From NCBI RefSeq assembly GCF_003340475.1, contig NZ_QBKA01000002.1, positions 381,501 through 445,500 of the forward strand: a stretch of DNA of 64,000 nucleotides. Direction: 5' to 3'. The notes under the pieces are model-generated. The model did not search any database, was not told the origin of the DNA, and worked only from the letters and a program-made list of their open reading frames with translations. This document shows, one piece after another, positions 23,812 through 25,551 of this stretch. How positions within the stretch are numbered: position 1 is the stretch's first letter; every line of letters begins with the position of its first letter. Both the position numbers and the translations under genes were made by a program. This DNA comes from Alteripontixanthobacter maritimus. GTDB taxonomy: Bacteria > Pseudomonadota > Alphaproteobacteria > Sphingomonadales > Sphingomonadaceae.

Positions 23812-25095
23812 TCAACGAGCGGTTTCGTCGATAAGTTCCTGCATATCGGGCGGCAGGTCGGCCGAAAAGCTGACCGTTTCGCCGCTGGCAGGGTGGATGA
23901 AGCCGAGCTCCGCCGCGTGCAGCGCCTGTCGGGTAAAATCCAACCGTTCGATGATCCGGCCGAGCCCATGCGCCAATCGTGCAGGTGCCATGCCGTAGAC
24001 TTGATCCCCTAATAGCGGATTGCCGATTGACGAACAGTGAACGCGGACCTGGTGTGTGCGCCCTGTTTCGAGCCGGCATTCGAGCAACGCGCAGCCCGGC
24101 ATGGTTTGCAGCGTCTTATAATGAGTTACGGCATGTTTTCCGCGCGTTACGCCGGGTGCGAGCACCGCCATTTTCTTGCGGTTCCGCTCACTTCGCCCGA
24201 GCCTGCCGGCGATCGTTCCGGCAGCCGGATCGGGGTGCCCGGCGCACACGGCGAGGTAGCGGCGATGGATGGAATGATCGGCAAACTGGGCTGCCAATCC
24301 TTCATGCGCGGCATCCGTTTTTGCTACGACCAGCAGGCCCGACGTGTCCTTGTCGATCCGGTGGACAATACCGGGGCGGGCCACTCCGTTGATACCCGAC
24401 AATTCTCCTTTGCAGTGGTAAAGCAAAGCATTCACCAGCGTGCCGGTGCGGTTCCCGGCTGCGGGGTGCACCACCAGTCCCGCAGGCTTGTCGACCACCA
24501 GGAGATGTTCGTCCTCGTAAACGATGGCAAGCGGGATCTCTTCCGGCTGCGCGACCGGATCGACGGGCGGGGGGAGGGTAACGATGTAGGACATCCCTTC
24601 GCGCGCTTTTGCGGCTGGCGAAGTGGCGGGCTTGTTATCGATGGTAATGGCACCGGCGGCGATCAGCGATTTCACGCGTTCACGCGAAAGGCCTGTGACC
24701 TCGGCCAGAGCCTTGTCCAGGCGGCCTGATGTGGCAAGCGTTCCATTCAAGGTCGTACCAGTAACTCGTGGATTTGTATGACTTACCTCCGTTCGCCCTA
24801 AGCTTGTCGAAGGGCTGCCCTTACTTTCAGCCAGAACTGAAATCGCCTCCCAATCGCCGCGTATCAAAGCCAGCTTTTTCGCCCGCGACCAACCCTTGAT
24901 CCTGCGTTCGGCCTCAAGCGCTTCCACACGCGACACCATTTCCTGCGACCATACCAATTCCACGGGCGCGAAATCTCTTGTGAAACCAGATACCGAACCA
25001 GATTGATGCTGTGCAATTCGGCGCTCCAAATCATCCGTGTGACCTGTGTAGATACGTCCGCCCCGGCAGTGTAGCATATAAGTCCAGAATGGCAT
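23812..25095 (-). CDS. rluD: GIY-YIG nuclease domain fused to RluD-type pseudouridine synthase
   Basis: One open frame of 427 residues with two unrelated parts. Residues 1-90 are a GIY-YIG domain: TYMLHC and IYTGHT at the start, Arg26, and a Glu-rich helix around 58-67. Residues 117-427 are a full-length RluD-family synthase with an S4 domain (about 123-170) and catalytic Asp248 in HRIDKDTSG. RluD modifies helix 69 of 23S rRNA. Between them, residues 92-102 are encoded by a palindromic repeat. The synthase has no good ATG of its own; TTG 24750 (Leu116) is a candidate start with no clear Shine-Dalgarno. So the join may be a real fusion or a GIY-YIG insertion that erased the old start. Confidence 0.85.
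   Translation of the reverse strand: MPFWTYMLHCRGGRIYTGHTDDLERRIAQHQSGSVSGFTRDFAPVELVWSQEMVSRVEALEAERRIKGWSRAKKLALIRGDWEAISVLAESKGSPSTSLGRTEVSHTNPRVTGTTLNGTLATSGRLDKALAEVTGLSRERVKSLIAAGAITIDNKPATSPAAKAREGMSYIVTLPPPVDPVAQPEEIPLAIVYEDEHLLVVDKPAGLVVHPAAGNRTGTLVNALLYHCKGELSGINGVARPGIVHRIDKDTSGLLVVAKTDAAHEGLAAQFADHSIHRRYLAVCAGHPDPAAGTIAGRLGRSERNRKKMAVLAPGVTRGKHAVTHYKTLQTMPGCALLECRLETGRTHQVRVHCSSIGNPLLGDQVYGMAPARLAHGLGRIIERLDFTRQALHAAELGFIHPASGETVSFSADLPPDMQELIDETAR
24791..24822 (+). repeat. Palindromic repeat, copy 1 (inside the fused gene)
   Basis: A 32-base element whose core reads CCCTAAGCTTGTCGAAGGGC. Its reverse complement matches copy 2 at 25112-25143 at 31 of 32 positions. It lies within the linker of the fused gene at 23812-25095 and encodes residues 92-102. 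The core resembles a dispersed repeat I recall from many sphingomonad genomes (from memory, not searched). Confidence 0.85.
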
Positions 25096-25111
25096 CCTGC
25101 GCTGCTAAGTG

Positions 25112-25143
25112 AAGGGCAGCCCTTCGACAAGCTCAGGGCGAAC
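25112..25143 (+). repeat. Palindromic repeat, copy 2 (between divergent genes)
   Basis: A 32-base element with core CCCTTCGACAAGCTCAGGGC in the 63-base gap between the GIY-YIG ATG (25095) and the JAMM gene (25159). It is the inverted partner of copy 1, with one mismatch, so the GIY-YIG coding block sits exactly between two inverted copies. Confidence 0.85.
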
Positions 25144-25158
25144 GGGAAGGGTTTTGGT

Positions 25159-25551
25159 TTGCAGATCGACAAGGCGATAATCGCGGCCATTGCGAGCCAC
25201 GCCGCCACCGCCCATCCGCGCGAATGCTGTGGCCTGCTCCTCGGCCCGGCCTCCGAACACATTACCGCCATCCAGCCCGCACGCAACGTGGCGGCGGACC
25301 CTGCACGACACTTCGAAATAGACCCGCAAACCCTCTTCGAAGCTATTCGCGCGGAGCGGGATGGCGGGATGGAAATCGTAGGGTATTACCATTCGCACCC
25401 CAACGGCCTTGCCGAGCCATCTGCCACCGATGCGGCGCAAGCGGCCCGTGATGGCAAAGTCTGGGCCATCATTGCCCGCGGCAAAATTGGGCTGTGGCAT
25501 GACACCCCCGCCGGTTTCGTCCCGCTTTCGTATCGCATAGCGGATGATTAG
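25159..25551 (+). CDS. JAMM/MPN metalloprotease-like protein
   Basis: A 130-residue Mov34/MPN protein. The JAMM zinc site is complete: Glu22, then His78-x-His80-x7-Ser88-x2-Asp91 in YYHSHPNGLAEPSATD. Bacterial members cut isopeptide or C-terminal extensions, for example on ThiS- or MoaD-like carriers, or act in sulfur transfer; no such carrier is next to this gene. The start is TTG 25159 with GGGAAGGG upstream; no ATG is near. The palindromic repeat ends 15 bases before the start and may have changed its leader. Confidence 0.85.
   Translation: MQIDKAIIAAIASHAATAHPRECCGLLLGPASEHITAIQPARNVAADPARHFEIDPQTLFEAIRAERDGGMEIVGYYHSHPNGLAEPSATDAAQAARDGKVWAIIARGKIGLWHDTPAGFVPLSYRIADD

Follow-up and report, generated by a model that had tools for sequence, protein, structure and literature searches.

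The genome of Alteripontixanthobacter maritimus carries a GIY-YIG nuclease gene that lies between two inverted palindromic repeats and is read in frame into rluD. The original prediction had suggested a new kind of repeat-nuclease pairing, and the pairing does reach far beyond the window, judging both by the counts of bracketed genes in other genomes and by a tree test of the class of repeat. The repeats are REP-like, and the best explanation that we can offer, which we consider probable, is that a REP-associated GIY-YIG nuclease acts as the mobiliser of REPs, being RAYT-like in its role but no RAYT.

The repeat-bounded unit and its fusion to RluD

The window, by which we mean the whole stretch of 64,000 nucleotides that was analyzed, includes the following features.

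23812 to 24771, minus strand: RluD part (S4 plus pseudouridine synthase), its own ATG missing; in-frame capture
24789 to 24822, plus strand: downstream REP, head-to-head with the upstream REP; coded linker SPSTSLGRTEV
24829 to 25095, minus strand: GIY-YIG nuclease coding part, residues 1-89, with Y6, Y16, R26, H30 and E63 invariant in alignment A1
23812 to 25095, minus strand: complete fused ORF of 427 aa, GIY-YIG::RluD
25112 to 25145, minus strand: upstream REP of the unit, tag CCGTTC plus hairpin GCCCT/AGGGC, with CTGCCCTT extension
25159 to 25551, plus strand: JAB-domain gene, divergent, TTG start, on the far side of the insertion site

Pfam finds a GIY-YIG domain (residues 3-74), S4 and PseudoU_synth_2 in the 427-aa frame; the JAB domain is named after a Pfam match of the window gene's homologue in locus L064. 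The two arms (24789-24822 and 25112-25145) are 34 nt long and identical as inverted copies at 33 of 34 positions, which confirms and slightly extends the repeats of 32 nt (31/32) that had been reported as flanking the GIY-YIG block. A search with a 27-nt arm core, allowing up to 3 mismatches, finds these two arms as the sole matches in the window, for a chance expectation of 0.00. The repeats had been placed exactly outside the GIY-YIG block. This stands for the upstream arm, whose end is separated from the GIY-YIG ATG by 16 nt and which has the same placement in relatives, but for the 3′ arm it is only approximate, as that arm is itself translated.

The translated copy codes for the linker into RluD, as had been proposed, and the start codon of RluD is gone. 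At an unoccupied site, such as L199, RluD starts with MAEAEIITGT, and in an alignment made by hand the codon that matches its first M is AGT in the window. Past residue 85 of the fused ORF, the earliest in-frame start-like codon is a TTG at residue 116, for which we see no clear ribosome site by eye. A promoter and terminator scan gave no result above chance.

Occupied and unoccupied rluD/JAB sites

The JAB gene of the unit's neighborhood is found in 132 of 149 family members, and its relatives led us to the unoccupied sites. Among the best 30 rluD/JAB loci, the unit is present in 5 (window included) and missing in 25, so that rluD without the unit, which the original prediction proposed to look for, is found. 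A fusion lacking the repeats, which would have refuted the prediction if common to all relatives, is not shared by them. Most of the unoccupied gaps (22 of 25) measure 14-66 bp, and one of these 22 contains a solo REP (L180). The remaining three measure 130 bp (with a REP remnant, L181), 141 bp and 749 bp. By eye, none of the 25 gaps has a REPIN, that is, a dispersed pair of REPs. The 749-bp gap (L204) looks like it carries an AbrB-like antitoxin and a gene that we take to be of the Fic/Doc type by its HPFADGNKRT motif; this site appears to accept other small cargo.

With further loci from the set of best relatives described below, and with copies of one assembly counted as one, there are 18 occupied sites, with 7 units facing rluD and 11 facing JAB. 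Because both orientations occur at the same place, the unit must have flipped or arrived more than once. A tree of the rluD/JAB units (72 columns, unresolved) has 12 changes vs. 15.6 when shuffled, with 3 of 500 shuffles as low, and its starred branches force at least 2 changes. In the JAB-ward sites that we inspected by eye, with no count taken, rluD, which lies 5′ of the unit there, seems to have retained its ATG. The insertion of the unit at rluD and the capture of that gene, as originally suggested, are thus supported by the 25 unoccupied loci out of 30, and by relatives with the unit in either orientation.

Duplication of a unit can be observed in the genome G025, in which two copies of the CGTC type described below (L036/L143) are 89.8% identical over 420 bp and have unrelated flanks. 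Their similarity extends about a dozen bases at most beyond the CGTC tags. No target duplication was recognized by eye, either at the rluD/JAB sites or at L036/L143.

GIY-YIG genes bracketed by repeats in other genomes

We say that a GIY-YIG gene has arms if an ungapped inverted repeat with a score of at least 16 connects the 260 nt upstream of it with the 330 nt downstream. L229 was left out for being too close to a contig end. In 29 Sphingomonadales genomes, the Pfam search led to 62 GIY-YIG places other than UvrC (L003 and L005 included), with 11 short or half matches (2 with an internal stop, including L004) excluded. UvrC was recognized by open frames longer than 600 aa and not by a family search, and 11 such UvrC-like matches were used for comparison. 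We find arms at 47 of the 62 places, but in none of the 241 shifted windows and none of the 11 UvrC domains. A random placement of the repeats with respect to GIY-YIG genes, which was one way in which the prediction could have failed, is not what we see.

A sample of 114 Alphaproteobacteria genomes has arms at 16 of 28 readable loci, and further loci from alphaproteobacterial genomes with multiple GIY-YIG genes have them at 5 of 20; the shifted-window control for both sets is 0 of 188. Genes with no arms above threshold thus amount to 15/62 in Sphingomonadales, 12/28 in the class sample and 15/20 in the multi-copy genomes. One alphaproteobacterial genome (G268, L238-L249) has 12 GIY-YIG matches at an E-value of 1e-9, two of them with arms scoring at least 16. 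In five loci (L221, L235, L237, L241 and L279), the arms are unusually long (45-102 nt), and some apparently contain two hairpins; it may be that whole REPINs, instead of single REPs, bracket some of the units.

Extending the search to 120 Pseudomonadota genomes, arms are present at 5 of 25 new loci, compared to 0 of 98 controls. The loci were scored with an HMM built from the Sphingomonadales genes; arms occur in 5 of the 9 loci scoring above 65 and in none of the 16 scoring below 62. We take those 16 to be YhbQ-like, by their motif. Beyond Pseudomonadota, we have one Chloroflexi record (L132), with the core on the upstream side only. In a set of the 80 best relatives of the window domain, which is biased because the query contained seven repeat-coded residues, the type-A core described below (with at most 2 mismatches) appears upstream in 46, downstream in 47, and on both sides, at similar offsets, in 38.

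In-frame capture of the neighboring gene

At the rluD/JAB site, the unit runs in frame into the next gene in 17 of 18 cases (RluD 6/7, JAB 11/11). Frame alone would give 1/3, which for 17/18 results in a p-value of about 1e-7 if shared ancestry is ignored. We ran Pfam on nine fused frames, and the partner is RluD in one, JAB in one, a SpoU-type methylase in three, the MeaB GTPase in one and alanine racemase in one, while two have no second Pfam match. Frames of at least 180 aa are found in 5 of the 59 readable members of the 62-place set, and in 37 of 80 in the biased set of best relatives. Fusion is recurrent but not universal.

A recurrent fusion of GIY-YIG to a SpoU-type methylase, with a diverged REP in the linker, is seen in Sphingomonas/Sphingobium (L100-L136). 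It was identified by Pfam on L105, L129 and L031, and by a shared sequence motif in the others. This is possibly a stable domesticated fusion.

Structure of the repeats and their copies in the A. maritimus genome

The arms sort into two groups: type A (CCGTTC or related tags, CTGAG/CGAG hairpins) and the CGTC types. For type A, we have 144 arms from 83 loci. They have a conserved tag, which is CCGTTC in 105 of the 144, a stem of 5 bp, and a loop with the conserved sequence GAGC..GTCGA. There are 46 distinct stems, in which the paired positions are complementary in 84% of the cases vs. 62% when shuffled (maximum 70%). The stem varies with compensation, and the repeat is therefore a REP-like element, formed by a tag and a hairpin.

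The A. maritimus genome (2.68 Mb) has 16 matches to a 17-nt core with at most 1 mismatch; a reversed control has 0. By eye, we assign four of these to a different repeat family, which leaves 12 REPs. The four members of that other family (L015, L017, L020 and L021, in G000) are similar copies that read AAACGGCAAGC..TGTCCTGAGCCTGTCGAAGGGGCCGAACGGCCG, with the REP core inside. Two of the 12 REPs flank the GIY-YIG gene, and the rest include three head-to-head pairs whose starts lie 58-64 bp from each other; across genomes, REPIN starts are about 43-71 bp apart. The nine REP arms that we inspected in this genome are tagged CCGCTC, the window unit being tagged CCGTTC. Beyond the hairpin, about 5 of the 9 closely resemble the unit ends by eye (YYGYnCTTnACTT-like) and the others do so loosely, a likeness that would be expected if REPINs are units that lack the gene. 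Tag and hairpin are common to the ends of the unit and the arms of REPINs, much as an insertion sequence and its short MITE derivatives have their terminal inverted repeats in common.

Two other places in this genome deserve mention. Two REP copies (L006 and L011, at G000:C2:19295 and 2578454) have identical flanks over the 120 nt inspected, which indicates a larger duplication around them. There is also another GIY-YIG gene (G000:C2:126736-126971; L003, L004), split between two frames; L003 has CGTC-like arms around it, and seems to be a unit of the other clade that has decayed.

Two nuclease clades and two superclasses of REPs

Do related nucleases go with related repeats? We assigned REP classes by regular expressions, which were revised once after arm inspection and before tree building. 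The tree includes 184 domains over 73 columns, with 94 of 180 inner branches open. For the A/CGTC label, we used 118 labelled rows, excluding 49 rows labelled as none and 17 as other. The label requires 1 change on the tree, compared to a shuffled mean of 34 and minimum of 25. When thinned to less than 70% identity (58 rows), it is 1 change vs. 19.5 (minimum 13), and to less than 60% identity (22 rows), 1 vs. 6.1 (minimum 3); thinning to less than 50% leaves 7 rows, and 1 vs. 1.9 is uninformative. A label with four REP types requires 7 changes vs. 38 when shuffled. Nuclease clade and REP superclass co-diversify. One alignment column, corresponding to protein position 73, has a K in 100% of the A clade and a W in 98% of the CGTC clade.

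In order to compare with published CGTC REPs, we used a strict definition with the criteria of PMC3733652: a CGTC or TGTC tag, a stem of 8-9 bp starting with A, a loop of 4-5 and a CC tail. These strict REPs are present in 54 of the 82 arm regions of the CGTC clade vs. 1 of 82 shifted regions, and on both sides of the gene in 24 of 41 loci vs. 0 of 41. They are found in 0 of 154 arm regions of the A clade, and in 10 of 96 regions around genes with no arms above threshold. A looser definition finds 77 of the 82 CGTC-clade regions, yet also 28 of 82 in the background. The hairpins of the CGTC clade have a CGTC or TGTC tag in 66 of 77. As far as can be judged by sequence, this superclass fits the published CGTC REPs. 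The window itself has 0 CGTC REPs of the GCGAAnGC type.

Abundance of dispersed REPs

Counts of REPs per genome were obtained by pattern searches, and compared between lists of genomes assembled by hand. REPs of the CTGAAC...TTTCAG type number 6-58 per genome in the 9 genomes that have a gene bracketed by that type, vs. 0-11 (median 0) in 20 genomes without one (p=1.2e-5). The link remains after removing the unit's own arms (p=1.8e-5), and after moving out one of the nine genomes (G016), the arms of which are in reverse sense (p=5.6e-5). In genome G001, 28 of 33 CTGAAC-type matches form pairs 62-71 bp apart, and two further matches are the ends of a GIY-YIG unit, 371 bp apart.

For type A, the abundance link has p=0.0014 (8 genomes vs. 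21), and there are type-A-rich genomes with no bracketed gene of the type (G009 with 60 core matches, G007 with 27). For the GCGAAnGC type, of the CGTC superclass, the link fails (median 14 in 11 genomes vs. 7 in 18, p=0.08), and several genomes are rich in these repeats with no bracketed gene of the type, for instance G011 with 94 and G001 with 88. Abundance of REPs is thus linked to the presence of a bracketed gene for two of the three REP types tested.

The nuclease

In both clades, conservation reaches 98-100% for five residues (Y, Y, R, H and E), which we take to be the GIY-YIG active-site residues. The dN/dS ratio has a median of 0.085 and a maximum of 0.26 in 18 of 22 pairs, values that are rough because the 4 excluded pairs are saturated in dS and several others have dS >1. 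The nuclease gene is under purifying selection. Pfam finds no transposase domain, intron, intein or second domain in the unit.

A structure model of the GIY-YIG part has a mean pLDDT of 95.1. Foldseek reports two matches with E-value ≤0.001, both of them NMR structures of UPF0213 proteins, and UPF0213 proteins (1zg2, 1ywl) are also the nearest PDB relatives by sequence. With VIA-align 2, the top eight rows are At-HIGLE and Slx1 entries with Z-scores from 7.7 to 6.5, where a Z below 8 is weak alone and known GIY-YIG domains occupy most of the top rows; UPF0213, I-TevI and UvrC domains appear among others after the eighth. According to the model, the predicted fold would be nearest to Slx1-type domains. 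Slx1 acts on branched DNA (from the titles of its PDB entries), and by analogy a hairpin or cruciform would be a suitable substrate for a structure-specific nuclease.

How the elements may move, and the alternatives

We infer that the repeats are recognized and cut by the nuclease, and copied after it has acted. The REP-bounded GIY-YIG element would consist of a nuclease gene of 90-100 aa between two head-to-head REPs, each of them formed by a hairpin behind a conserved tag, which is CCGTTC in the window and CGTC in the sister clade. The nuclease most likely recognizes REPs of its own type in their hairpin or cruciform state, and would cut at or near the tag. Then, host repair or replication would copy the cut element to new places; we know of no strand-transfer activity of a bare GIY-YIG domain, so the copying must fall to the host. 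The dispersed REPINs, having similar ends and no gene, look like non-autonomous derivatives. When a unit lands beside a start codon, translation of its 3′ REP would yield a linker rich in Ser, Thr and Gly, and the gene that follows (rluD in the window) would survive as an in-frame fusion, which in turn would tie the host to keeping the nuclease. In favor of this account are the bracketing, the co-diversification of nuclease clade and REP superclass, the abundance link of two REP types, the purifying selection, the duplicated unit, the occupied and unoccupied sites, and the predicted fold. Weighing against it are the GIY-YIG genes that have no arms above threshold, the failed link of the GCGAAnGC type, the REP-rich genomes that have no bracketed gene, the CCGCTC tags of the dispersed arms in A. 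maritimus, the strand transfer that a bare GIY-YIG domain is not known to perform, and the target duplications that we looked for by eye and did not recognize.

We also lean, by a smaller degree of belief, toward a more general claim: that two large REP superclasses, the CGTC REPs included, have stand-alone GIY-YIG nucleases as their dedicated mobilisers. These nucleases would be a second and enzymatically unrelated counterpart of the REP/RAYT system, which spreads by structure-specific cutting and host copying rather than by transposase chemistry, and which secures itself by in-frame gene capture.

The chief rival to the nuclease as mobiliser is homing, in which REPs and REPINs spread by some other route, and a GIY-YIG homing gene invades REPIN spacers using the arms as homology. 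GIY-YIG domains are classic homing nucleases, the unit resembles a REPIN with the spacer replaced, I-TevI domains are among the fold neighbors, and REP-rich genomes with no bracketed gene occur. A tree in which nuclease and repeat are cognate is expected under homing as well, so it does not decide between the two. The unoccupied rluD/JAB gaps tend to speak against homing, since by eye none of the 25 has a REPIN to invade, only the solo REP of L180 and the remnant of L181, though a REPIN may have stood at the site before the unit came. We regard homing as unlikely. Less likely still is a domesticated host function, with the nuclease serving to trim or resolve cruciforms of REPs or hairpins of mRNA, the flanking REPs being regulatory, and mobility a thing of the past. 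Low dN/dS, the fixed layout, the structure-specific nucleases among the fold neighbors and the fusions to housekeeping genes are all consistent with such a function. It is harder to reconcile with the patchy presence of the unit and its two orientations at one site, with its duplication in one genome, and with the A. maritimus copy that is split between two frames.

Two other explanations we give hardly any credence. GIY-YIG::RluD could be an ordinary two-domain enzyme, inherited vertically, for which the repeats are incidental; an open fused frame is indeed kept at 6 of 7 rluD-ward sites. But RluD adjoins JAB with no unit in 25 of 30 loci, the unit facing the opposite way is fused to JAB, units elsewhere are fused to a SpoU methylase, MeaB or alanine racemase, and unfused genes repeatedly have arms as well. 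This reading is refuted by the unoccupied sites and by those with the opposite orientation. Alternatively, REPs could be mobilised by a RAYT (a Y1 tyrosine transposase), with the GIY-YIG genes being passengers or preferred neighbors. RAYTs have been proposed to mobilise GTAG REPs, in the available text of PMC3116915 and PMC3733652. However, a search for the Y1 transposase (PF01797, E-value 0.001) finds none in 15 of 17 REP-bearing genomes, A. maritimus included, and the two loci with PF01797 matches have none of the five REP cores tested. Di Nocera et al. (PMC3733652), too, found no gene for a tyrosine transposase with CGTC repeats on its flanks.

If GIY-YIG nucleases do mobilise REPs, they provide a concrete and testable candidate for the mobiliser of the CGTC REPs, which the 2013 survey (PMC3733652, as far as its available text goes) left open. 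A CCGTTC-tagged class of REPs is added, and one residue (the K/W column) is suggested as tracking the repeat class that each nuclease serves. The repeat-coded peptides and the nuclease fusions found on housekeeping proteins of these genomes would also be accounted for.

Comparison with known systems

The unit shares features with several known systems. It has the same catalytic domain fold as the GIY-YIG homing endonucleases of the I-TevI type, but unlike them it is bracketed by its own dispersed repeats, and has no intron, intein or second domain according to Pfam. It differs from the UPF0213/YhbQ-like GIY-YIG proteins, as the 16 low-scoring YhbQ-like loci are not bracketed by repeats. In the Rickettsia palindromic elements, a palindrome is translated in frame within protein genes, and the window has such a palindrome read in frame inside a protein gene; this one differs in lying at one end of a nuclease-coding unit and in supplying the linker of a fusion.

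As for previous reports, a term search for GIY-YIG finds no mention in the main text of PMC3733652, and there is none in the available parts of PMC5082802, nor of "GIY" in those of a 2025 survey of REPs (PMC12306157). No paper joining GIY-YIG genes and REPs is among the matches listed in the open-licence literature, which leaves preprints and most subscription journals outside; in one match that contains terms for both, these stand in unrelated places.

According to the available text of Di Nocera et al. 2013 (PMC3733652), CGTC REPs, which include dRS3 and RPE-4/RPE-6, are found in all orders of Alphaproteobacteria and in five phyla, apparently without a dedicated transposase. The repeats of the sister clade match them in tag, stem of 8-9 bp, loop of 4-5 nt, CC(A) tail and head-to-head pairs. 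The window repeat, on the other hand, has a CCGTTC tag, a stem of 5 bp and a loop of 11 nt, and neither of the published tags matches it.

A close parallel is with the REP/REPIN-RAYT systems (TnpA-REP, REPtrons), described in PMC3116915 and PMC8266576 in the text available. As in those systems, a single gene is flanked by REPs that are also dispersed as head-to-head doublets, and the type of repeat and the type of enzyme go together. What sets the unit apart is that its tags are CCGTTC or CGTC instead of GTAG, and that its enzyme is a GIY-YIG nuclease and not an HUH tyrosine transposase.
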